Of a DNA stretch of 45,901 nt, positions 35,123 through 45,901 are shown one piece after another. The stretch comes from Ruminococcus flavefaciens (GTDB lineage Bacteria; Bacillota; Clostridia; Oscillospirales; Ruminococcaceae), in assembly GCA_023662725.1 (NCBI GenBank), contig JAMPIL010000012.1, forward strand, positions 1-45,901, read 5' to 3'. A model generated the notes under the pieces. It was given only the letters and a program-made list of their open reading frames with translations, made no database searches and was not told the origin of the DNA. The position numbers were made by a program, and so were the translations under genes. How positions within the stretch are numbered: position 1 is the stretch's first letter; each line of letters begins with the position of its first letter.

Positions 35123-37237
35123 TTATTTATTCTTTTTAGCTTCAATTTCAGCAAGAGCGTCTTTGCGTGAGAGATTGATCCTGCCCATACGGTCGATTTC
35201 AGTTACCTTAACGATAATTTCATCTCCTACAGAGACAATATCTTCAACTTTTTCCACTCTCTGCTTGTCGAGTTTAGAAATATGAACAAGACCATCCATA
35301 CCGGGAACGATTTCAACAAATGCGCCAAATTCCATAAGTCTTACAACCTTACCTCTGTAAAGTGCTCCTACCTCAGGACCATTAGCGATAGTTTCTACTA
35401 TCTGAATAGCCTTTTTAGTGTTGTCAGCATCAATACCGCTGATGAATACGTTTCCATCATCATTTATATCGATCTTAACGTCGCAGTCGGCGGAGATCTT
35501 CTGAATAACCTTACCGCCCTGTCCGATAACTTCACGAATCTTGTCAGCCGGAATCTTAGTCTGGAGCATTTTTGGAGCATACTTGTTTACAGTTGCTCTT
35601 GATTCAGGAATAGCCTTGAGCATTATCTCATCAAGGATATAAAGACGAGCTTTTCTGGTTTTCTCGAACGCTTCCTTGATGATAGCAGGAGTAAGACCGT
35701 CAACCTTAATGTCAACCTGAATAGCTGTGATACCCTTGTGAGTACCTCCAACCTTAAAGTCCATATCGCCAAAGAAATCCTCAAGCCCCTGAATATCGAC
35801 CATTGTCATAAAATCGTCACTGTCGGGAAGGGTAATAAGACCGCATGAAATTCCGGCAACAGGAGCTTTGATCGGAACGCCTGCGTCCATAAGAGCGAGT
35901 GTAGAACCGCAGATAGAACCCTGTGAAGTTGAACCGTTAGAGGAAAGCACCTCGGAAACGAGTCTGAGGGCATATGGAAATTCTTCAACCGGAGGAATTA
36001 CCGGAGCAAGAGCTCTTTCAGCAAGCGCACCGTGACCGATCTCACGTCTTCCCGGACCTCTGCTTGGCTTGGTTTCGCCGACGGAGTAGCTTGGGAAATT
36101 GTACTGATGCATATATCTCTTGGATTCTTCTTCATCAAGACCGTCGATTCTCTGAGCGTCGCTTACAGGACCGAGAGTTGCTATAGTAAGAACCTGAGTC
36201 TGTCCTCTTGTGAAAAGACCGGAACCGTGAACTCTTGGAAGAAGTCCGACTTCTGCTGCAAGCGGACGAATCTCATCAATGCCACGGCCATCAACACGCT
36301 TGCCCTCATAAAGCCATGCACGAACGATTTTTTTCTGAAGCTTATAAATGCACTCGTCTATCATAGCGATTTTTTCGGGATATTCCTCATCAAATTTAGC
36401 GTGAATATCGTCTACGATAGGAGCAAGTCTTTCGTCACGTACATTTTTGTCGTTTGTATCAAGAGCAAATTTAACACGTTCGGAAGCAAATTCCTCAATA
36501 GCGTCAAATAAATCGTGATCGACTTCCTGTGATTCAAAAGCAAATTTGGGTTTACCGATCTGACTGCGTATTTCATTGATAAACGCAACCATCTTCTTGA
36601 TCTCTTCATGACCTGTAAGGATCGCATCAAGCATTGTATCTTCGGGAACTTCATTAGCTCCGGCTTCTATCATAACAATTTTTTCAGCAGTACCGGCAAC
36701 AGTGAGAACGAGATCTGTTTTAGCTCTCTGTTCGAGAGTAGGATTGAGAACGATCTGACCGTCTACAAGACCGACATTGATTCCGGCAATAGGACCGTTC
36801 CACGGAATATCAGAAATGGAGATAGCTATAGAAGTAGCGATCATTCCGGCGATTTCCGGAGAATTATCCGGTTCAACGGAAAGAACGGTCATAACAACTG
36901 AAACATCGTTTCTCATATCCTTTGGGAAGAGGGGACGAATAGGTCTGTCAACGCATCTGGATGTAAGAATGGCCTTTTCTGAAGGTTTGCCTTCTCTTTT
37001 TGTGAAAGAGCCGGGAATTTTTCCAACGGAGTAAAGACGTTCTTCGTAATCAACCGAAAGAGGGAAGAAATCAATGCCCTCTCTTGGTTTAGCGCTTGCA
37101 GTAACGTTAGCCATAACAACAGTTTCGCCGTATCTTACCCAGCATGAGCCGTTTGATAATCCGCAGGCTTTGCCGGTTTCAACGATAAGCGGTCTGCCTG
37201 CATAGGTCGTTTCAAATGTTCTGTAATTTTCAAACAT
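35123..37237 (-). CDS. pnp: Polynucleotide phosphorylase
   Basis: A 704-residue 3'-5' exoribonuclease that degrades RNA by phosphorolysis. Two RNase PH domains (residues ~10-225 and ~315-545) flank a helical domain; FFPLSVDYEERLYSVGKIPG and GERALAP-like blocks (HGALAERALAPVIP) are typical. The KH domain has the GxxG loop in VIGQGGKVIQKI, and the S1 domain is at the C-terminus (GKVVRLMEFGAFVEIVPG). The ATG at 37237 follows CAGGAGGA. It follows rpsO, the classic rpsO-pnp pair. Confidence 0.97.
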   Translation of the reverse strand: MFENYRTFETTYAGRPLIVETGKACGLSNGSCWVRYGETVVMANVTASAKPREGIDFFPLSVDYEERLYSVGKIPGSFTKREGKPSEKAILTSRCVDRPIRPLFPKDMRNDVSVVMTVLSVEPDNSPEIAGMIATSIAISISDIPWNGPIAGINVGLVDGQIVLNPTLEQRAKTDLVLTVAGTAEKIVMIEAGANEVPEDTMLDAILTGHEEIKKMVAFINEIRSQIGKPKFAFESQEVDHDLFDAIEEFASERVKFALDTNDKNVRDERLAPIVDDIHAKFDEEYPEKIAMIDECIYKLQKKIVRAWLYEGKRVDGRGIDEIRPLAAEVGLLPRVHGSGLFTRGQTQVLTIATLGPVSDAQRIDGLDEEESKRYMHQYNFPSYSVGETKPSRGPGRREIGHGALAERALAPVIPPVEEFPYALRLVSEVLSSNGSTSQGSICGSTLALMDAGVPIKAPVAGISCGLITLPDSDDFMTMVDIQGLEDFFGDMDFKVGGTHKGITAIQVDIKVDGLTPAIIKEAFEKTRKARLYILDEIMLKAIPESRATVNKYAPKMLQTKIPADKIREVIGQGGKVIQKISADCDVKIDINDDGNVFISGIDADNTKKAIQIVETIANGPEVGALYRGKVVRLMEFGAFVEIVPGMDGLVHISKLDKQRVEKVEDIVSVGDEIIVKVTEIDRMGRINLSRKDALAEIEAKKNK

Positions 37238-37385
37238 AAAAAATCCTCCTGAAATTTATTTATACCGGCTTTAGCAATAAACTCTGGCGCAAACAGATAT
37301 TTTGCGTCACAATTTAATGCTAAAAGCCGTTTCCTTGTATTGACATTGATCAATACGCATAACACGTCTTGAAAATAAAGACGTA

Positions 37386-37417
37386 AAGGCAGAAAGGTAC
37401 AACGACCCGTCTGCCTT
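37386..37417 (-). terminator. Weak terminator or processing hairpin between rpsO and pnp
   Basis: On the minus strand AAGGCAG pairs with CTGCCTT across an 18-nt loop, then TACGTCTTTATTTTC. The T-tract is imperfect, which would let part of the rpsO transcripts continue into pnp. The 190-bp spacer holds no gene. Confidence 0.5.
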
Positions 37418-37427
37418 GAATACAGAA

Positions 37428-37694
37428 TTACTTACGAAGACCGAGCTTTTCTACGATAGCACGATATCTGTTGATATCCTTCTTCTTAAGATATCCAAGA
37501 AGGTTACGTCTGTGACCAACCATTTTAAGAAGACCTCTTCTGGAGTGGTGATCGTTCTTGTGGGTCTTGAGGTGAGCTGTAAGATCATTGATTCTCTTTG
37601 TGAGAATAGCGATCTGAACCTCAGGAGATCCTGTGTCGTTTTCGTGAGTTCTGTTAGCCTCAATAACGGCTGTTTTTTCTTCTTTCAGTAACAT
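37428..37694 (-). CDS. rpsO: Ribosomal protein S15
   Basis: An 88-residue small-subunit protein that binds the central domain of 16S rRNA early in assembly. [20 protein letters not shown] and [20 protein letters not shown] are hallmarks, and the C-terminus is LGLRK. The length is exactly normal when started at the ATG at 37694, which has AGAGGTG upstream; a GTG three codons earlier overlaps that site and is rejected. Confidence 0.98.
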
Positions 37695-37739
37695 TGAAAG
37701 CACCTCTTAGTATAATATTCCGCTGACGTAGATAGGGGT

Positions 37740-37767
37740 GGATTATCATGAGGACAAGCCCGAATCC
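37740..37767 (-). promoter_or_regulatory. Candidate S15 autoregulatory leader stem
   Basis: On the minus strand GGATTCGGG (37767-37759) and the later AATCC (37744-37740) pair within the rpsO 5' leader. S15 represses its own translation through leader structures in several bacteria; this fold is a candidate only. Confidence 0.35.
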
Positions 37768-37784
37768 AAGTACACGGTGATATT

Positions 37785-37813
37785 ATTATATCACAAATTC
37801 AAAACAATGTAAA
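37785..37813 (-). promoter_or_regulatory. Sigma-A promoter of rpsO-pnp
   Basis: On the minus strand TTTACA (37813-37808) and TATAAT (37790-37785) are spaced 17 bp, with TGa extending the -10. The leader would be about 85 nt. Confidence 0.85.
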
Positions 37814-37858
37814 GTAGTTTTGGAAAATTTTTTCAAAAAGATTTTCAATAGCGAACGG

Positions 37859-39343
37859 CTATAATAATATATGCTTGGTGGCAGTCTGTTCGCAGAAGTG
37901 TTTGTCATGCTCAACAAATAAAATCGAAGCTTCGGATGATTTTAGCAATTCTTCTATTTGTATTCTCGATAAAACATCAATATAATTCAGCGGTTCATCC
38001 CAGATATACAAATTTGCCTTTTCGGACAAACTTCTGGCGAGAGCAACTTTTTTCTTCTGACCCTGACTATAGCTTTCAACCGGACGCAGGAAAAGTTCCC
38101 GTGAAAAATCAAGTTTGCGGAGAATAGCTTTAAACAAGCTTTCATCCACACTATATTTTTGGGCATAATCGGACAAGCTTCCGCTTAAATTGGATGTATC
38201 TTGAGAAGCATAAGAAATTGTAAGACCGCTTCCAATTTTAAGACTGCCAGTATTTTCAATATTTTCGCCGCAAATGAGCTTTAGGAGCGTAGATTTTCCG
38301 CATCCGTTTTTTCCTGTAACAGCAATTCTGTCTCCCTGATTTATCTGAAATGAAACGTTTGAAAAAACTTCAATGCCATCGTAAAAAGCCGAAAGTTTAT
38401 CAGCTCTTACAAGAATTTTCTGCGGATATTTCAAGGGAGATAATTTCAGCGATGATATTTCTTCTGCGTTTTGCAAAAGCTTACTCTTATCCGAGATATT
38501 TCTTTCAATACGGTTTTCCATAGACTTTGCACGATTCATTAATTTAGCGGCTTTTTTTGAGATTGAAACTCGTCTGGTCAAAGATTTTTCCACTTTTTTG
38601 GGATCAAATCCTATTTTCGTAGCGGCAATTTTATCGGAATGCGCAGCAACCTTTTTTGCTGTTTGTTCCAGCTGACGAATTTCTCTTTTCAGACGTTCGT
38701 TCCGGGTTTGTTCGAACTGTTCCAAACGTTCACGATTTTCATTCCACGAGCTGAAATTTCCTTTCTGAACCTCGATATTTGTTTTATTTATAACAAGAAT
38801 GTGGTCTATGCAGGAATCAAGAAAATCTCTGTCGTGTGAAACGAGAATAAAACCGGATTTTCTTTTAAGATAAGAAGCAAGAATTTCTCTTGCATGAAAA
38901 TCCAAATGATTGGTCGGTTCGTCAATAAGAAGAAAACTATTTTCTTTAAGGAACATTCCGATAATAAGAATTTTAGTTTGTTCGCCGTTTGACAGCGAAG
39001 CAAAAGGACGGTAAAGAAGTTCTTCATCCGCTTCCAGAAGACTGAGTTCACGTCTGATCTGCCAATCTTCCGCTTGCGGAGCTATATCATGAATAACATC
39101 CGCCGCGAAATAAGAAGATTTTGATTCATATGGAAAATACTCGAAATAGACTGATGAAATTATTTTTCCGGTATATTCAAGTTCTCCCATAAGAATTTTG
39201 AGAAGAGTAGTTTTTCCACGTCCGTTACGTCCGGTAAAACCGAGTCTCCAGGCGGTATCAAGCTGTAAATCAACATTTTCAAATACGTTTTCATAGCTGG
39301 AATCGTAGCCGAATGAAAGATTTTGAATTTTTATAATAGACAT
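37859..39343 (-). CDS. ABC-F ribosomal protection protein (Lsa-like)
   Basis: A 494-residue soluble protein with two ABC ATPase domains and no membrane part, the ABC-F layout. The Walker A motifs are GRNGRGKTT and GKNGCGKST; the signatures read SLSNGEQTK and SYSQGQKKK; the Walker B motifs are FLLIDEPTNHLDF and LYIWDEPLNYID. The last, with the variant WDEPLNY, is typical of the Lsa/Vga group that frees ribosomes from lincosamides, streptogramin A and pleuromutilins. Between the domains is a charged helical interdomain linker (residues ~215-275; the antibiotic-resistance domain). The ATG at 39343 follows GGAGGG. An upstream leader peptide and terminator point to induction by ribosome-targeting drugs. 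Some ABC-F proteins serve translation rather than resistance. Confidence 0.88.
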   Translation of the reverse strand: MSIIKIQNLSFGYDSSYENVFENVDLQLDTAWRLGFTGRNGRGKTTLLKILMGELEYTGKIISSVYFEYFPYESKSSYFAADVIHDIAPQAEDWQIRRELSLLEADEELLYRPFASLSNGEQTKILIIGMFLKENSFLLIDEPTNHLDFHAREILASYLKRKSGFILVSHDRDFLDSCIDHILVINKTNIEVQKGNFSSWNENRERLEQFEQTRNERLKREIRQLEQTAKKVAAHSDKIAATKIGFDPKKVEKSLTRRVSISKKAAKLMNRAKSMENRIERNISDKSKLLQNAEEISSLKLSPLKYPQKILVRADKLSAFYDGIEVFSNVSFQINQGDRIAVTGKNGCGKSTLLKLICGENIENTGSLKIGSGLTISYASQDTSNLSGSLSDYAQKYSVDESLFKAILRKLDFSRELFLRPVESYSQGQKKKVALARSLSEKANLYIWDEPLNYIDVLSRIQIEELLKSSEASILFVEHDKHFCEQTATKHILL

Positions 39344-39361
39344 AAATATCCCTCCGTTTTC

Positions 39362-39398
39362 AAAAATAAAAGACCGCAGAAAATATCCGCAGTCTTTT
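39362..39398 (-). terminator. Leader terminator upstream of the ABC-F gene
   Basis: On the minus strand AAAAGAC and GTCTTTT pair, and the stem continues inward with GCGGA/TCTGC (about 13 bp, one G-U flank), followed by ATTTTTG. It lies 19 bp before the ABC-F start, inside its own transcript, and so acts as an attenuator. Confidence 0.85.
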
Positions 39399-39458
39399 GA
39401 ATACAAAAAGATATGCCCACTACAAAAAAGAGCATCCTATACTATAATTCAAGAAAGA

Positions 39459-39477
39459 GCGAACATTTCCTGCTCGC
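39459..39477 (-). other. Leader hairpin of the ABC-F transcript
   Basis: On the minus strand GCGAGCA pairs with TGTTCGC around GGAAA. The G-U pair is only possible in the minus-strand RNA, fitting an RNA element. It may pause polymerase or take part in an antiterminator fold. Confidence 0.5.
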
Positions 39478-39546
39478 ATATCATTATACAGCAAACAAGC
39501 CCAGAAACTATTCTGCGCTGAAAACAGTATTCGGATATGCAAAAAA

Positions 39547-39567
39547 TCAGCAAGAAATATTACGCAT
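39547..39567 (-). CDS. Six-codon leader peptide of the ABC-F attenuator
   Basis: The frame ATG CGT AAT ATT TCT TGC TGA (peptide MRNISC) starts about 32 nt after the predicted transcription start and has GAGGTGG, a strong ribosome-binding site, four bases upstream. Leader peptides of this kind precede vmlR, vga and related genes, where a drug-stalled ribosome on the leader prevents the terminator from forming. The function is inferred from arrangement. Confidence 0.6.
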   Translation of the reverse strand: MRNISC

Positions 39568-39605
39568 CTTTCCACCTCAATTCTTATAACAATAATTACA
39601 ACATC

Positions 39606-39634
39606 ATTATAACAGCAAATTTTTATATTGTCAA
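39606..39634 (-). promoter_or_regulatory. Sigma-A promoter of the ABC-F leader
   Basis: On the minus strand TTGACA (39634-39629) and TATAAT (39611-39606) are spaced 17 bp, with TGt extending the -10. It gives a leader of about 255 nt before the ABC-F start, which accounts for most of the gene-free stretch 39344-39605. Confidence 0.9.
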
Positions 39635-39695
39635 GAGAATAATTCAGTTTAAATATACGATTCACAAAAAGTTCATAAAAAAATTGTGTTTTAGG

Positions 39696-39703
39696 TGTCG
39701 AAA
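39696..39703 (+). promoter_or_regulatory. Possible Spo0A box upstream of the sigma factor
   Basis: TGTCGAAA is an exact match to the 0A-box core TGTCGAA, 68 bp before the sigma gene start. A single 7-bp match occurs by chance often; only its place before a regulatory gene makes it worth noting. Confidence 0.25.
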
Positions 39704-39770
39704 AATACTGATATTTTACGTTATTATTAATAAAGGTAAGTTAAAGAAAAACGGAGAAGGGGGAGAAAAA

Positions 39771-40292
39771 ATGGAAATATGTCTGTCTGCATCGCAGGAA
39801 TCTGCAAATCATATATCATTTGAGGAAATGTATATGAGCAATAGAAAAATTATGATGCATACTGCCATGAAGATACTTAATAATTTCAGCGATGCAGAAG
39901 ACTGCGTTTCCGAGGCATTTTTGAGAGCTTCAAAAATTTTTCCAAAAATTTCTAAGCTTGAATGTCCAAAATTAACCTCGCTGCTCGTTATAATAGTTAG
40001 AAATGCCGCAGTGGATAAATACAGGGAAAATAAACGAATAACATCTGTTGAATGTCCGGAAGAAATCTCCGGAGCGGTCAGCATTGACAGCTATTCCTTT
40101 GATTCCGTTGTGAGCGTTATAAAGCAGATGAAAGATGAATACAGAGATATTCTTATGCTTCGCTACGTTTATGGGTACTCAGTGAAAGAAATATCGGATA
40201 TATTGAATATATCAAATGATAATGCTTACAAACGTATTCAGCGTGCTAAATCATCACTTGCAAAACAGCTTGAGATAGGAGAGAAAACATGA
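39771..40292 (+). CDS. ECF-type RNA polymerase sigma factor
   Basis: A 173-residue sigma-70 family factor with only regions 2 and 4. Region 2 covers ~15-90 (FSDAEDCVSEAFLRASKIFP, then RNAAVDKYRENKR), and region 4 ~115-170 (YRDILMLRYVYGYSVKEISD, then NISNDNAYKRIQRAKSSL is the helix-turn-helix). It would direct RNA polymerase to a small regulon, released by a signal. The ATG at 39771 follows GGGGGAG; the frame is open upstream without a start signal. Its stop overlaps the next gene by four bases (ATGA), the usual coupling of sigma and anti-sigma. Confidence 0.9.
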   Translation: MEICLSASQESANHISFEEMYMSNRKIMMHTAMKILNNFSDAEDCVSEAFLRASKIFPKISKLECPKLTSLLVIIVRNAAVDKYRENKRITSVECPEEISGAVSIDSYSFDSVVSVIKQMKDEYRDILMLRYVYGYSVKEISDILNISNDNAYKRIQRAKSSLAKQLEIGEKT

Positions 40293-42532
40293 GCAAGGAT
40301 ATTTTAAAAAAGGCCTTAGAGACACAGCTTTATGAATCTTTTAATGAAATGTTGGATCAGGAAATTCCTGATTATCAGTTTTCATCGGATTTTGAAGATA
40401 AAATGGATGAGCTCCTGTCCAACCAGCAAATCAAGCCTGTTAAAAAGCATAGAGGGTTGATAAGAATAGTCTCGTCTTTAGTTGCTGCGTCAATCATTCT
40501 CGGAATATGCGCCGACGTTAAATCAGAACCTGATCTGGAACGAAAAAAAAATTATGGCATTATTCCCTCGATAGAATATCAGGTAACTACCGCAGTTTCT
40601 GAAACATCTGAATCATTTATAACAACCGCCACGTCGGCTTTATCTGAAAGTACAAAAACAACTCAAACAAATGCATTAACAACAATTCTTTCGCCAATTG
40701 AAACTACTACGATCATGTCGATGAGTTCACAAGATATCGGCACGGAACATAATTCAATTCCGAAAACAACTGCTTTGCCGGAAAATCCGAGCAGATTTGA
40801 TTCGGAAAATGAAAATCATCCGGCAGATAATAACAATAATACCGGAGATGATAAACCTCCGGAAAATAATGATAACATCGATAATGATCATGAATCGAAT
40901 AATGGCGAATCTTTTGATGAAAGGGGTTACTATATGAAAAAACTTATAACTTTTGCTTCAGCCCTTACTATCATGGGCTCAGCTATATCAAGCCCGGCTT
41001 ATGCCGCTGAAAACACCACTCCATGGTATTGGGTTTCTGAAAAGGATAAAGAAGTCATAAAATCTATGGAAAACGGCGATTTTAACTTTGATCTGGACAA
41101 CAACGGAGTTTTTGATATCGTTGATGTTTATCTGCTTGATCGTGTTACCGATCGTTTTTGCTCTAATCATAATGTAGACGAGCAGGTAGAAAAAAACTGT
41201 ATGGAAAATGCAGATTATAATTCTGACGGAACGGTTGATATGGAAGATGCAAGTTTATTGCGTGAATACTTTGTTTTGAATTATCCGATAAAATATGAGT
41301 ATTTTTCTACTAAAAGCGAAATATGGTCTGATCAGGTAAAAATAGATGAAAGTTACTTATATTATAATTTTATTTTTAGGTTAGATGGTTGTGTTGATCG
41401 ATATCATGCTTACTATAAAATATTGGAAGATTTAACAGACAGAGGCGATTTTAATCCGGATATAAACGGCGATGGTAAATTTGATATTCTAGACGTATGT
41501 GATTTATATATATATCAGTATATTTTAACAGATCACAATGGAAATCGTTCAAATCTTGATGAATCACATTTAACGCCTGAAGCAATGGAACAAATTGATA
41601 GGCTGTTAACAATTCCACGATATGCTGAAGTAACAAATAAAGATGTTCACTATGTTCTTATAAATGATTTGATAGCCTATTGTTTCTCTCAAAGTCCATA
41701 TTCTGCGCAAATGCTTAATAGTGAATATTTTAATATGTATCGTTCCGGATATGATTTTGAGACGCTGAGTTGGTTTATTTATCAATATGCATCTATAAGA
41801 GAACTGGATATGGACAGTTACTTCATAGATTATGATTTGATAAACAAATATTGTGACAGAAGTTCAGATGAATTTAAATTTGTTGAGGATTCTCATCCGG
41901 ATGTAAATATGGATGGCGCAATTGATTATTATGATTATTTCGATACTCTCATCTATTTTTATGATATTCTCGATAATACAAGTTGTGAGGATAGTATTCT
42001 TCCGGATGAAGTATGGCATAATATTGCAGAAAACTGCGACTATAGCGGAAACGGAACAAGCGGTGATATTTATGATCTGACTATTGTTCAGGTATATGTT
42101 CTGATCAATGCTCCTGATGCACCTCAAAGTTTTGAATCTGATTTCCAAGCTTATGTAAATAAACTTTCGGAAAAATCCGGAAAAAATGTTGACCTTGATA
42201 GTTATAACGGAGAAGACATTACTTTTAATTACAATAAGAAAATTGCTCTTTTAGCTGAAAATCCTGACAAATCTACAGAGGATGAAAAAAATGGTTATTT
42301 AGATCCTTCGGCTGAGCGTTCAGGCGATGCTAATTGTGACGGAACTCTAAATATGTCTGACGCCGTTTTAATAATGCAGGTGAATTCCAATCCGGATAGA
42401 TTCGGACTTAACGGTTCAGACCCAACGCATATTACTGAAAAAGGATTGTACAATGCAGATATTTATTGTACCGGAGACGGAGTAACGAACGCTGACGCAT
42501 TGGAAATACAAAATATACTTCTCAGCGAATAA
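40289..42532 (+). CDS. Anti-sigma-like membrane protein fused to a dockerin-repeat domain
   Basis: A 747-residue predicted protein. Residues 1-55 are cytoplasmic and acidic, in the place of an anti-sigma domain; 57-74 are a membrane segment (RIVSSLVAASIILGICA); ~80-210 are a Ser/Thr-rich then Asn/Asp/Glu-rich extracellular linker. At residue 216 a second hydrophobic segment begins that looks like a complete signal peptide (MKKLITFASALTIMG, ending PAYAAENT). Beyond it are at least four calcium-binding dockerin/EF-hand loops (DLDNNGVFDIVD, DYNSDGTVDMED, DINGDGKFDILD, DVNMDGAIDYYD), a degenerate one near DYSGNGTSG, and a C-terminal Ruminococcus-type pair (GDANCDGTLNMSDAVLIMQ, then GDGVTNADALEIQNILL). 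The pairing with an ECF sigma gene recalls SigI/RsgI. Whether it is one long protein, two nested products, or a recent fusion is open. Confidence 0.78.
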   Translation: MSKDILKKALETQLYESFNEMLDQEIPDYQFSSDFEDKMDELLSNQQIKPVKKHRGLIRIVSSLVAASIILGICADVKSEPDLERKKNYGIIPSIEYQVTTAVSETSESFITTATSALSESTKTTQTNALTTILSPIETTTIMSMSSQDIGTEHNSIPKTTALPENPSRFDSENENHPADNNNNTGDDKPPENNDNIDNDHESNNGESFDERGYYMKKLITFASALTIMGSAISSPAYAAENTTPWYWVSEKDKEVIKSMENGDFNFDLDNNGVFDIVDVYLLDRVTDRFCSNHNVDEQVEKNCMENADYNSDGTVDMEDASLLREYFVLNYPIKYEYFSTKSEIWSDQVKIDESYLYYNFIFRLDGCVDRYHAYYKILEDLTDRGDFNPDINGDGKFDILDVCDLYIYQYILTDHNGNRSNLDESHLTPEAMEQIDRLLTIPRYAEVTNKDVHYVLINDLIAYCFSQSPYSAQMLNSEYFNMYRSGYDFETLSWFIYQYASIRELDMDSYFIDYDLINKYCDRSSDEFKFVEDSHPDVNMDGAIDYYDYFDTLIYFYDILDNTSCEDSILPDEVWHNIAENCDYSGNGTSGDIYDLTIVQVYVLINAPDAPQSFESDFQAYVNKLSEKSGKNVDLDSYNGEDITFNYNKKIALLAENPDKSTEDEKNGYLDPSAERSGDANCDGTLNMSDAVLIMQVNSNPDRFGLNGSDPTHITEKGLYNADIYCTGDGVTNADALEIQNILLSE
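40934..42532 (+). CDS. Nested in-frame start: secreted dockerin-repeat protein
   Basis: An ATG at 40934, in frame with the longer gene, has AAAGGGG 8 bp upstream and begins a textbook signal peptide with probable cleavage after PAYA. Started here the product is 532 residues: an exported protein of dockerin/EF-hand repeats without a catalytic domain. This would be the normal third gene of a sigma/anti-sigma/target cluster if a stop codon before it had been lost. Both starts may be used. Confidence 0.5.
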   Translation: MKKLITFASALTIMGSAISSPAYAAENTTPWYWVSEKDKEVIKSMENGDFNFDLDNNGVFDIVDVYLLDRVTDRFCSNHNVDEQVEKNCMENADYNSDGTVDMEDASLLREYFVLNYPIKYEYFSTKSEIWSDQVKIDESYLYYNFIFRLDGCVDRYHAYYKILEDLTDRGDFNPDINGDGKFDILDVCDLYIYQYILTDHNGNRSNLDESHLTPEAMEQIDRLLTIPRYAEVTNKDVHYVLINDLIAYCFSQSPYSAQMLNSEYFNMYRSGYDFETLSWFIYQYASIRELDMDSYFIDYDLINKYCDRSSDEFKFVEDSHPDVNMDGAIDYYDYFDTLIYFYDILDNTSCEDSILPDEVWHNIAENCDYSGNGTSGDIYDLTIVQVYVLINAPDAPQSFESDFQAYVNKLSEKSGKNVDLDSYNGEDITFNYNKKIALLAENPDKSTEDEKNGYLDPSAERSGDANCDGTLNMSDAVLIMQVNSNPDRFGLNGSDPTHITEKGLYNADIYCTGDGVTNADALEIQNILLSE

Positions 42533-42565
42533 TAAATAATAATTCTAAGAACAAGATGAATACAG

Positions 42566-42597
42566 AAACTGCCGTACATTAGTGCGGCAGTTTTTTA
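42566..42597 (+). terminator. Terminator after the dockerin gene
   Basis: AAACTGCCG pairs with CGGCAGTTT around a 10-nt loop, followed by TTTATTA. It separates this gene from the convergent AraC gene. Confidence 0.88.
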
Positions 42598-42612
42598 TTA
42601 ATTATTATTTGC

Positions 42613-43461
42613 TTAAGTTAGTTTCAATTTTTCTTGCTTAGGAGTAATGCCTTTCCATTTTTTATAAGTTCGTATAAAATGACTGCAATCAAAGAAGCCT
42701 GTTTCTTGCGCAATAAAATTCAGGTCATAATCTGTATGAAAAAGCAAATCCTGAGCTTTATTCAATCTGATGCAGGTAATATATTCTTTGCAGGAGCGCC
42801 CATAATTTTCACGGAACAGTTTTGCAAAATGAGAATAGCTCATATGACACATTTCTGCCAGTTCATGAATCTCCAGCGGTTCTCCGGAATGTGTGTCAAT
42901 ATATTCCAGAATATGATAAAACGAAAAATCTGTATCGGTGTGATTTGCTTTTGAAGCAATGATTTCTTTTTCAGTTTTTCTTGCAAATTCTATCAGCAGC
43001 GTATAAATATTGGATTGAACCTGCAATGCGTAAAAATCTTTTTTGTCCGTATATTCCTGAATAGTACTACCTATCAAAAAGTCGACAGAGGCTCTGTCCA
43101 GCTGTTTGCCGTCTATTATCATGCAGAAGTCGGTTTCCTGTGTTCTTCTGGTAAATATATCATAGAATTTCGAGATGTATGCTTGTGGAATATTGATCGT
43201 ATGTATATCAAATTTCAATACGGCATACTGAACTTCTGTATCCTGTGCTTTAGAGAATTCATGAAGCTGTAGCGGGTAAATATAACATAAATCGCCTTCT
43301 TTTAGAACAGTTTTTCGATTGTTACAGGTAATTGTAACGGAACCCTTGGTCATATAAATTATCTCACTGTAGTAATGCCAGTGAAGCGGAGAATTAACAG
43401 AATCGGTGTAAAAAATATCGTAAGGTTTTTTCAGAATATCAATATATTCAAATAACTGCAT
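42613..43461 (-). CDS. AraC-family transcriptional regulator
   Basis: A 282-residue regulator. The N-terminal ~150 residues form a cupin sugar-sensing domain (SPLHWHYYSEIIYMTKGSVT, then GDLCYIYPLQLHEF). The C-terminal 100 residues carry two helix-turn-helix motifs (LEIHELAEMCHMSYSHFAKL and LNFIAQETGFFDCSHFIRTY) and end in the typical KWKGITPKQ. It is divergent from the epimerase/GH26/GH94 operon and is the obvious candidate to activate it on binding a mannan- or cellulose-derived sugar. The ATG follows GGGAGGG. Confidence 0.92.
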   Translation of the reverse strand: MQLFEYIDILKKPYDIFYTDSVNSPLHWHYYSEIIYMTKGSVTITCNNRKTVLKEGDLCYIYPLQLHEFSKAQDTEVQYAVLKFDIHTINIPQAYISKFYDIFTRRTQETDFCMIIDGKQLDRASVDFLIGSTIQEYTDKKDFYALQVQSNIYTLLIEFARKTEKEIIASKANHTDTDFSFYHILEYIDTHSGEPLEIHELAEMCHMSYSHFAKLFRENYGRSCKEYITCIRLNKAQDLLFHTDYDLNFIAQETGFFDCSHFIRTYKKWKGITPKQEKLKLT

Positions 43462-43547
43462 ATCATTTCCCTCCCATTACTATTTTACAGCAATCGAGCA
43501 GGAAAGTCAATCTGAAATAATAGATTTATACAATTTTTTCTTCTCTT

Positions 43548-43565
43548 TTTCATAGAAATATGAAA
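43548..43565. promoter_or_regulatory. Inverted repeat, candidate AraC-regulator site
   Basis: TTTCATA and TATGAAA are perfect arms around GAAA and overlap the -35 region of the epimerase promoter. AraC proteins often bind just upstream of, or over, a weak -35 box. Binding is inferred from position; many AraC sites are direct rather than inverted repeats. Confidence 0.45.
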
Positions 43566-43581
43566 TAAAGAAGCGTATAAT
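43553..43581 (+). promoter_or_regulatory. Activator-dependent promoter of the mannan operon
   Basis: TATAAT at 43576-43581 is a perfect -10 box, whereas the -35 position (43553-43558) reads TAGAAA, only four of six. A good -10 with a poor -35 fits a promoter needing the AraC activator. The leader is about 85 nt. Confidence 0.6.
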
Positions 43582-43674
43582 GTAATCATCGAAAGCAAAC
43601 AAGAGGTTTGATACAGCAAGAGCCGGCTTACCTTGTAATCAGACTGAACTATACAGTGAAAGGATATTTTGATT

Positions 43675-44853
43675 ATGGAAGCAAAGGTATTTCAGGAACA
43701 TCTCGAAAATAATCTGATTCCGTTCTGGAACAGAATGAAAGATGAAATAAACGGCGGTTTTTACGGTTATGCAGATGCCAAGGGAAATCCTGATATGAAA
43801 AGCGTAAAAGGAGTTATTCTCAACAGCAGGATTTTATGGTTTTATGCTTCTGCATATCAGCTCCTCCGCAAACCCGAATTGCTTGAAATGGCAGATCACG
43901 CTTACAGATTTCTTGTGGATCACTGCTTTGATTCCCAATATGGCGGTGTTTATTGGTCTGTAAACTATGATGGAACTGTATGCGATGATACAAAGCACAC
44001 ATACAATCAGGCATTTGCGATTTATGCGCTGTCGGCATATTATCATGCGAGCAAAAGAAAAGAAGCTTTGAATTTGGCTTATGTTCTCTATCGTGTGATC
44101 GAGGAAAAATGCAGGGACAGCAAGGGTTATCTTGAAGCGTTCAAGCGTGATTTTACTCCATCGTCCAACGAAAAACTTTCCGAAAACGGCGTTCTTGCAG
44201 AACGTACCATGAATACGCTGCTTCATGTTCTTGAAGCATACTCTGAACTTTATTATGCAGATCATTTTTACGAAGTGGGGGATTCTATCCGCAGTATACT
44301 TCGTTTGTTTGAAAAGAAAATATATGACTCGGAAAAACAGATTTGTGATGTTTTCTTCGATGCAGATTATCGCTCTCTGATCGACCTTGAATCCTTCGGT
44401 CATGATATTGAAACATCATGGCTGATCGATCGTGGATGCAGCGTTCTTGAAGATAAAGCGTATCAAAAGGAAATGCTGCCGATGATAAACGGTCTTGCAG
44501 AAGCTGCCTATCGGAATGCCTTTGACAAGCGTCAGAATGCTTTGAATAACGAGCGTGAAGGCGATCGCATCGACAGTCAGAAAATCTGGTGGGTTCAAGC
44601 GGAGTCTGTAGTAGGATTCTACAATGCCTATCAGAAAAATCCGCAGAAAACAGAGTATCTGCACACAGCCGAAAAAATCTGGGAGTTTATTCAGCATCAT
44701 GTCATTGATTATAAAAGCGGTGAATGGGTAGAAAGTATTCCTGCTGATCGTTTGCCGGATTCCGGTCAGGCGCTTGTACATCCGTGGAAATGTCCATATC
44801 ATAACGGTAGAATGTGCATGGAAATGATACAGCGTTTATCACAGGTTTCATAA
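43675..44853 (+). CDS. Cellobiose 2-epimerase (AGE family)
   Basis: A 392-residue (alpha/alpha)6-barrel enzyme that converts the reducing-end glucose of beta-1,4-disaccharides to mannose and back. NNLIPFWNRMKDEINGGFYG, KGVILNSRILWFYASAY, YGGVYWSVNYDGT and HPWKCPYHNGRMCMEMI closely resemble the Ruminococcus albus enzyme as I recall it. Residues expected at the active site are present: Arg in NSRILW, His and Glu in HDIETSWLID, Trp and Glu in WWVQAESVVGF, and Trp and His in HPWKCPYHN. N-acylglucosamine 2-epimerases share the fold but not these segments. I chose the ATG at 43675; a TTG at 43669, nearer to GAAAGG, is possible. It heads an operon with GH26 and GH94 genes. Confidence 0.92.
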   Translation: MEAKVFQEHLENNLIPFWNRMKDEINGGFYGYADAKGNPDMKSVKGVILNSRILWFYASAYQLLRKPELLEMADHAYRFLVDHCFDSQYGGVYWSVNYDGTVCDDTKHTYNQAFAIYALSAYYHASKRKEALNLAYVLYRVIEEKCRDSKGYLEAFKRDFTPSSNEKLSENGVLAERTMNTLLHVLEAYSELYYADHFYEVGDSIRSILRLFEKKIYDSEKQICDVFFDADYRSLIDLESFGHDIETSWLIDRGCSVLEDKAYQKEMLPMINGLAEAAYRNAFDKRQNALNNEREGDRIDSQKIWWVQAESVVGFYNAYQKNPQKTEYLHTAEKIWEFIQHHVIDYKSGEWVESIPADRLPDSGQALVHPWKCPYHNGRMCMEMIQRLSQVS

Positions 44854-44871
44854 TTACAAGGAGGAATTATT

Positions 44872-45813
44872 ATGCAGAATACAGTTAATCATAATGCAAC
44901 TCCCAAGGCAAAGGAACTGCTGAATTATCTTTCGGATATTGCAGGAAAAAAGATAATTACAGGTCAGCATACACAGACCAACCCTATGGAAGAAATTGAT
45001 TATATTGAGGAAATCGTTGGAAAACAGCCAAAACTCAGGGGATTCGAATTGCTTTCTTATTCACCGAATATCAATTACGATGATGCGGATGAATCATGTC
45101 TGACTGAGATTTATGAGAATCGTGGAACAGTAGATACTGCATTGAAATGGGCAAAAGAAAACGAAGGAATCATTACATTTACATTTCACTGGTTTTCACC
45201 TATCGGAGGACGTGATAAGAGCTTTTATGCCAAAAATACGGATTTTGATGCTGCTTGTATACTGCTTGAGAATACACCGGAACGGAAAGCGTTTTTCCAT
45301 GATATGGACGTGATTGCAGAACTGCTGAAAAAATTTCAGGAAGCGGATATTCCTGTTTTGTGGCGTCCATTCCATGAAGCGTATGGGGATTGGTTCTGGT
45401 GGGGAGAGAAAGGAGCTGAAACAGCACGTGAACTTTATAAGCTGATGTTCGATTATTATACTAATGTTCATAAAATAAATAATTTGCTATGGGTATGGAA
45501 CTGTCCCTTAAAAGAGGGATATCCAGGAGATGAATATGTTGATGTAATTTCGACCGATATTTATCTTTCTGAATATTCTGCAACGGATTATCACGAAGAT
45601 TATGAAAAAATGATTGTGGAAACTACGAAAAACAAGGTTGCTGCACTTGCAGAAGTAGGCTATATGCCGGATATTGATATACTGGAAAAGTCGCACACCC
45701 CATGGGCGTACTATATGACCTGGTCAAAAGAATTTTGTATCGGAGAGCAGTATAATCGTATTGAGCAGGTTAGAAAAATGTATAACAGTGACTATTCAAT
45801 TACTTTAAATTAA
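44872..45813 (+). CDS. Cytoplasmic GH26 beta-mannanase or mannobiohydrolase
   Basis: A 313-residue glycoside hydrolase of family 26 with a (beta/alpha)8 barrel. The acid/base Glu is in WRPFHEAYGDWFWWG and the nucleophile Glu in VAALAEVGYMPD; FTFHWFSPIGG and KIITGQHTQ are further family landmarks. There is no signal peptide, no carbohydrate-binding module and no dockerin, so it probably works inside the cell on imported manno-oligosaccharides rather than on polymer. The ATG follows AAGGAGG, 18 bp after the epimerase gene, indicating one operon. Confidence 0.92.
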   Translation: MQNTVNHNATPKAKELLNYLSDIAGKKIITGQHTQTNPMEEIDYIEEIVGKQPKLRGFELLSYSPNINYDDADESCLTEIYENRGTVDTALKWAKENEGIITFTFHWFSPIGGRDKSFYAKNTDFDAACILLENTPERKAFFHDMDVIAELLKKFQEADIPVLWRPFHEAYGDWFWWGEKGAETARELYKLMFDYYTNVHKINNLLWVWNCPLKEGYPGDEYVDVISTDIYLSEYSATDYHEDYEKMIVETTKNKVAALAEVGYMPDIDILEKSHTPWAYYMTWSKEFCIGEQYNRIEQVRKMYNSDYSITLN

Positions 45814-45846
45814 GAACAAGTTCTAAAACAGAAAGGAATTATTATA

Positions 45847-45901
45847 ATGAACTACGGACATTTTGACCTTAAAAACAAGGAATACGTAATAACGAACCCA
45901 G
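45847..45901 (+). CDS. GH94 disaccharide phosphorylase, N-terminus only (runs off the window)
   Basis: Only the first 18 codons are present, reading MNYGHFDLKNKEYVITNP. This opening matches the conserved N-terminus of cellobiose phosphorylases (GH94), which split beta-1,4-glucosides with phosphate. AGAAAGGA precedes the ATG. The gene lies 33 bp after the GH26 gene. The family call rests on a short stretch plus context; a GH94 enzyme with other specificity is possible. Confidence 0.72.
   Translation, partial: MNYGHFDLKNKEYVITNP

Follow-up and report, generated by a model that had tools for sequence, protein, structure and literature searches.

The contig JAMPIL010000012.1 of Ruminococcus flavefaciens (assembly GCA_023662725.1; 45,901 nt, hereafter the window) carries a gene for an extracytoplasmic function (ECF) sigma factor that overlaps a single open frame of 747 codons. 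The frame is predicted to yield two proteins: a membrane anti-sigma factor read from the upstream start, and a free secreted dockerin protein read from a second start inside the same frame. From the sequence, we put the probability of this reading at about 0.7. The fused frame occupies positions 40289..42532 of the plus strand, on which all features below lie unless stated otherwise, and contains no internal stop. It shares the four nucleotides ATGA with the end of the sigma gene (39771..40292), as a first-pass annotation made from the letters of the window had reported with correct coordinates.

The second start is readily seen in the window. A Shine-Dalgarno site, AAAGGGG (40920..40926), is positioned 7 nt before an internal ATG and has a duplex energy of −8.1 kcal/mol; in its context, gaaaggggttactatATG, the core is AGGGG and the Met is residue 216 of the frame. 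This Met opens a signal peptide (40934..41005; residues 216–239, MKKLITFASALTIMGSAISSPAYA) made up of MKK, a hydrophobic core and an AYA/AE cleavage site of the AxA type, at a position conserved in the family, and the mature N-terminus of the predicted short product would be residue 240 (or 241). The window sequence thus bears out the first-pass description of an anti-sigma-like module that runs without a stop into a part with its own ribosome-binding site, start and signal peptide. Around the internal Met, the window and the first eight orthologs follow the pattern GAA AGG (A/G)G(T/C) NNN NNN ATG AAR AAR.

To tell selection on the DNA from selection on the protein, we used a sample of 80 further stretches (mostly from the best matches to a profile, A1, built on the internal signal peptide and first loops, with weaker ones left out, and three from matches to the N-terminal profile A2 described below), 20 earlier stretches and locus L023. 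In these, 106 frames matched, and removal of duplicates, of one doubtful frame (L136, probably free-standing) and of 15 unfused frames left 88 distinct fused genes. The second frame of L143 is the same gene as L166 and is counted once among the 88; the topology, automatic-start and some cluster figures are based on the 89 frames present before that duplicate was removed. A site was called strong when its duplex with the anti-Shine-Dalgarno sequence reached −7.5 kcal/mol or lower, and the null was obtained by redrawing eight codons synonymously, with the genes' own codon use, 1000 times. Strong internal sites are found in 70 of the 88 fused genes, against a mean of 10.9 and a maximum of 23 in the redraws, while among the 1361 other in-frame Met codons of the fused genes, 50 have a site of this strength. 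Every gene with a core (AGGAG, GGGAG or AGGGG) also has strong energy and vice versa, giving the identical 70; the core ends exactly 7 nt before the start in 63 of them, and the codon at the start is ATG in all but one gene, which has GTG (69 and 1). Clustering at 50% identity gives 51 groups, of which 41 have the strong site throughout, 7 lack it and 3 are mixed, indicating that the signal is not owed to a few close relatives. For 17 frames, fused and free-standing together, we chose the start by hand on the basis of the peptide, with the DNA already known; automatic start choice agrees in 84 of 89 frames and then gives a strong site in 68 of 89. Predicted mRNA structure is lowest at the start in site-bearing genes, but low GC confounds this trend, and a comparable dip is seen 15 nt upstream in genes that lack the site.

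The same conservation could in principle be owed to the peptide, if the sequence slows the ribosome or if ERS..MKK is read as a protein cleavage or membrane motif, with no translation start. ERS is indeed the commonest tripeptide at the site (53 of 70), and genes that lack the site still have the hydrophobic segment, although in weakened form. The codons, however, speak for the DNA. Specifically, the Arg of ER[S/N] is spelled AGG in 55 of 57 genes and in only 5 of 41 cases elsewhere in the same genes (Fisher p 6e-19), the tripeptide takes ten forms, with the core found in all three registers, so that the variants keep the DNA site and not the peptide, and the start codon and 7-nt spacing are kept as well. 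On the strength of the Arg codons and of the other peptides that preserve the DNA site, we rejected the protein motif, and we give the explanation as a whole only a small chance. Taken together, the strength of the site, the AGG bias and the peptide variants that encode it point to selection on the ribosome-binding site. That this selection acts while the frame stays open is strongly supported at the sequence level, as is the first-pass alternative of one gene making a sensor and a free secreted ligand, and dual coding, with two predicted products of one gene, is well supported.

The fusion itself recurs in relatives. In a genus sample of 60 genomes that includes the window's own, residues 1–215 have strong matches (E below 1e-12) in 8 of the 59 others, each of which is one open frame of 740–1291 codons that directly follows an ortholog of the window's sigma gene, 65–72% identical to it. 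A profile of eight orthologs of residues 1–215 (A2) gives 16 matches with E below 1e-30 in 125 genomes, window included, and all eight matches outside its own rows are also fused. A profile limited to the first 90 residues (A5), and so free of both the internal start and the end of the linker, puts the same 16 first (E below 1e-23); all are fused, the shortest having 359 codons, and 13 of them are rows of A5 itself, so that only three are new. An ECF gene lies just upstream of, or overlaps, 87 of the 88 fused genes. Furthermore, the same fused frame is present in independent assemblies. Among these are R. flavefaciens FD-1, ND2009, XPD3002 and SAb67, in which the stored stretches agree fully with our loci wherever they overlap; loci were also tied to eight metagenome assemblies. 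An assembly or read error that joined two genes, or removed a stop, was therefore rejected as the origin of the 747-codon frame; nothing was found in its favour, and its chance is negligible. The first-pass annotation had suggested looking for a stop codon between the two parts in relatives, and among close relatives no pair of separate genes appeared: the frames are fused.

The outer module is spread more widely within the genus. The A1 profile detects it, fused or free-standing, in 67 of 125 genomes of the genus. In a family-level search of 297 genomes from 126 genera, run at one sensitivity setting with at most 15 candidates per genome, it was found only in the window's genome and in none of the other 125 genera; four other members of the genus among the genomes listed in that search gave no module match either. 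Free-standing secreted homologs of the outer part were collected from 12 loci, with no sigma gene within about 2.2 kb upstream; these are 12 of the 15 unfused frames, with L116 (at a contig end), L193 and the reverse frame of L161 (both short) left out. All 15 reach −6 kcal/mol at their own ribosome-binding sites.

The N-terminal module, in turn, exists without the outer part. Weaker matches to it (E 1e-8 and above) include many unfused proteins of about 200–280 codons along with some distant fused genes, and the unfused proteins scanned, which stand beside sigma genes 37–41% identical, carry DUF4367 in five of five cases. In five of the seven outgroup loci read, the anti-sigma-like gene ends in a stop codon of its own, and the gene after it is separate and begins like a signal peptide. 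The unfused loci with this order, in which the parts of the fused genes are also arranged, are L073, L075, L076, L077 and L079, and DUF4367 is present in the scanned L075–L079.

This outgroup order, together with the existence of free-standing homologs with signal peptides and the erosion of the signal peptide in fused genes that lack the site, would fit a history in which only the full-length sensor matters, the internal start and signal peptide being relics of a separate secreted gene whose upstream stop was lost. A relic would decay, yet the site, its fixed spacing and the biased Arg codon are kept across 70 of 88 genes and 41 of 51 clusters, which makes such a history improbable. Just as improbable, in our view, is a frame that simply encodes an anti-sigma factor and then a secreted protein, both of an ordinary kind, so that their covalent link is incidental and the outer part senses nothing. 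That idea draws on the 12 loci in which the outer part stands free of a sigma gene, but every close relative detected with the N-terminal half is fused. In addition, the linker is highly variable yet open in all fused relatives, whereas its other two frames hold 514 and 769 stops over the 10,779 linker codons of the 88 genes. No locus has a stop just before the internal start, a count that is not independent, as the fused set was defined by its open frame.

At L101, which has two fused genes, and at L097, differing anti-sigma N-termini are joined to nearly the same internal signal peptide (ERSI.MKKFLASAAAAA), a pattern that suggests module swapping with a break near the internal start.

The upstream half of the fused protein has the predicted architecture of a membrane anti-sigma factor, with a cytoplasmic N-terminal domain, one helix and a co-encoded sigma gene. 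Residues 1–55 (40289..40453) form the putative anti-sigma domain. They align with the N-termini of DUF4367-type proteins beside related ECF genes with an hhalign probability of 97.8 (E 7.7e-13), and this profile alignment to unfused N-termini groups the domain with membrane proteins beside ECF sigma genes, which we take to be anti-sigma factors. Helices are predicted at residues 2–22 and 33–45, in a model of low overall confidence (pLDDT 64), and comparison with solved structures gave no meaningful match (best E 0.036). Transmembrane helix 1 (40457..40519; residues 57–77) is assigned from hydropathy with the N-terminus inside, and family-wide Lys and Arg are richer before it than after it (mean 5.18 vs 2.13). 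It is followed by a linker rich in Thr, Ser and Asn (40520..40918), predicted from its composition to lie outside.

The partner sigma protein is an ECF sigma factor: it is short (173 aa), has regions 2 and 4, with Pfam Sigma70_r2 and Sigma70_r4_2 over the cut-off, and lacks region 3, no family of which is among the 15 Pfam families listed for it. Against NCBIfam it matches TIGR02937 (E 2.8e-21). The sigma frame, which ends at 40292, is already open from a start at 39537; the ATG at 39771 is preceded by a purine-rich ribosome-binding site, and several orthologs begin there too.

The outer part ends in a dockerin. Dockerin_1 is the sole Pfam family found in the whole fused protein at E ≤ 1 and no enzyme domain appears, in agreement with the first-pass annotation. 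The outer helical region (41006..42319) carries calcium loops at residues 268, 309, 391, 538 and 584. Loops of the dockerin type fit a strict pattern at residues 268, 309, 391, 538 and 680 and a looser one at 584, and the second loop of the C-terminal dockerin was found by alignment, which brings the total to seven where "six or so" had been noted. A sixth strict-pattern match, at residue 523 and so shortly ahead of the 538 loop, lacks the Gly and is probably due to chance. The structural model of residues 240–747 predicted by AlphaFold2 is mostly helical (mean pLDDT 79, pTM 0.59).

The C-terminal module (42320..42523; residues 678–745) is identified as a group 1 type dockerin by sequence matches in the PDB to 5m2s_B (E 5e-21) and 5m2o_B (E 5.4e-11), which are R. 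flavefaciens group 1 dockerins in complex with cohesins. The same two entries are the best Foldseek matches of the outer-part model in the PDB (E 0.0013 and 0.07, probability 1.00 each), with TM scores over the dockerins of 0.75 and 0.78, respectively; the matches cover the C-terminal module alone, and nothing in the PDB fell below E 0.001. Contact positions described for the dockerin Doc1a include 39, 43, 47, 83 and 87, with Val or Met accepted at 39, and Lys occupies 54 (PMC5429695). By hand count on the alignment, the window has, at the described contact positions, Met39, Ser40, Val43, Leu44, Met46, Gln47, Arg54, Gln83 and Leu87, and the residues at 39, 43, 47, 83 and 87 are those expected of a candidate group 1 dockerin. 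The window's own genome contains related dockerin modules at 29 other places and nine cohesin matches, eight of which lie together on contig 11 (in three frames, of 304, 1344 and 561 codons) in what looks like a scaffoldin cluster, and the ninth elsewhere and below the family cut-off. The first-pass proposal that the outside part docks on cohesins is thus supported, as a prediction, for the C-terminal dockerin by its group 1 match, its kept contacts and the cohesins of the genome. A figure legend in an earlier report (PMC3672088) names an extracellular R. flavefaciens protein whose only known domain is a dockerin.

Upstream of the sigma gene is an ECF-type promoter pattern (39696..39724), TGTC[CG]AA followed after 16 nt by [CA]GTTAT. 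The pattern is found, at identical spacing, in all ten aligned sequences (the window and nine orthologs), and its conserved −35 and −10 elements make it a candidate for the sigma factor's own promoter. Ahead of the −35 element, at about 39665–39690 of the window, lies a conserved A/T-rich element that in most aligned orthologs is close to TTNACAAAANGTTCANAATT. In the window's own genome, the exact pattern has two matches, one upstream of the sigma gene and one inside it. The in-gene match, at 39963–39991 (coding CPK.TSLLVI), falls in a stretch that matches in 7 of the 12 genomes searched, and may be a coding coincidence or an internal promoter for the fused gene. Across these 12 genomes, the exact pattern matched 5 times outside the operons, against 14 times for a reversed control; with one mismatch allowed, it matched 9 times in the own genome (2 in the operon), against 20 for the control. 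The simplest reading is that the operon is the main target of its own sigma factor.

We propose that translation from the upstream start would give the membrane anti-sigma factor, consisting of the N-terminal domain, the helix, a wall-crossing linker and an outer part that ends in the dockerin, with the N-terminal domain holding the co-transcribed ECF sigma factor. Initiation at the internal start would yield only the outer part, which its own signal peptide would direct out of the cell as a free dockerin protein. When the whole frame is translated, helix 1 would already have opened export, and the internal signal peptide, being weakly hydrophobic, would cross passively. Compared with helix 1, this second hydrophobic segment is less favourable to membrane insertion in 89 of 89 frames; in site-bearing genes it is also weaker than the signal peptides of the 12 free-standing homologs (mean 5.4 vs 3.1 on the scale used, p 1e-5). 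Such a weak segment could be cut as a signal when N-terminal and pass through the export channel in the long form. We infer that the cell makes both forms, that the N-terminal domain acts as inhibitor of the sigma factor and that the two forms bind the same scaffold cohesins; given such shared binding, the free form would compete with the tethered form for docking sites, and the system would report or set the number of filled sites. A sensor function is hypothetical at this stage. A more specific and rather doubtful version is a thermostat of cohesin occupancy, in which the membrane form would engage empty cohesins, the ECF factor would be released and the operon turned on, and the free form would then fill the cohesins and turn the signal off. 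If true, a sensor and its competing ligand would be encoded in one frame, with their ratio set by two ribosome-binding sites, and this would be a Ruminococcus answer to gauging cellulosome assembly.

Several observations weigh against this proposal or narrow its reach. Eighteen of the 88 fused genes are without a strong site, eight of them intermediate (−5.5 to −7.0 kcal/mol) and ten weak, so a second product is not universal in the family. In L112 (genome G002) and L113 (genome G010), Glu-Arg-Ser is kept, with Arg spelled AGA and a weak site. The statistics on the site, the AxA motif and hydrophobicity treat related genes as independent, to which the cluster count is a partial answer. The putative assignment of residues 1–55 as an anti-sigma domain is drawn from operon position and profile similarity. 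Among the long fused frames, 25 of 87 are without the first-loop dockerin motif in their last 100 residues, so cohesin docking is not a function common to the whole family. In addition, promoter-pattern matches elsewhere did not exceed the control, so no wider or cellulosome regulon was detected by this search, which a looser regulon would escape. The first-pass interpretation is, overall, partly supported.

The ten genes with a weak internal site (above −4 kcal/mol) are at L105, L109, L110, L112, L113, L126, L141, L152, L171 and L182, and they form a natural comparison set for the role of the free product. The AxA cleavage motif is kept in 64 of the 70 genes with the site and in 10 of the 18 without (p 0.001), and the internal hydrophobic segment is less hydrophobic in the latter (p 0.002), which fits the loss of the second product in those lineages.

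The system belongs with the ECF/anti-sigma kind and not with RsgI. As in the RsgI/SigI pairs of Clostridium (Acetivibrio) thermocellum, a sigma gene is combined with a membrane anti-sigma partner whose outer part comes from the world of cellulosomes and polysaccharides; here, however, the sigma factor is of the ECF type, the N-terminus has no RsgI match, the outer part has a dockerin in place of a carbohydrate-binding module, and an internal start is present for the free outer part. No RsgI family was found up to E 1 for the window protein in Pfam or NCBIfam, or for the eight rows of the A2 profile in Pfam. RsgI membership was rejected on two grounds: the RsgI N-terminal domain is absent, and the outer part has only Dockerin_1 and no carbohydrate-binding or enzyme domain. 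A 2024 survey describes RsgI receptors as used only by cellulosome makers of the Acetivibrio type (PMC11557425).

The ECF/DUF4367 operons are closer, sharing a homologous N-terminal domain, one transmembrane helix and an adjoining related ECF gene, but their presumed anti-sigma genes end at about 220–280 codons, are unfused and have DUF4367 as the outer domain. The C-terminal module is like the R. flavefaciens group 1 dockerins in that it aligns to 5m2s_B and 5m2o_B with contact positions kept, and differs from them in having no enzyme attached; its carrier is a regulator with a predicted secreted twin. An in-frame internal start that gives a long and an N-terminally shortened product is familiar from bacterial clpB. 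In contrast to clpB, the short form here has its own signal peptide, so that the two forms would differ in place, one tethered to the membrane and the other free outside.

A search of the open-access literature, mostly at the level of titles and abstracts, found no description of such a system. The family is a clear example of selection maintaining a ribosome-binding site within an open frame, so that one gene can yield a membrane regulator and its free secreted outer part. In a six-strain comparison, the regulation of Ruminococcus enzymes and scaffolds is named as still to be understood (PMC4081043), and the fused family is a concrete candidate for that regulation.

An Rfam scan of positions 37000–45901 gave no match. 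Downstream of the fused frame, at 42613–45813, are genes for an AraC-type regulator (minus strand), an N-acylglucosamine 2-epimerase family protein and a GH26 protein with no obvious signal peptide, a set that looks like a small mannan-oligosaccharide module.

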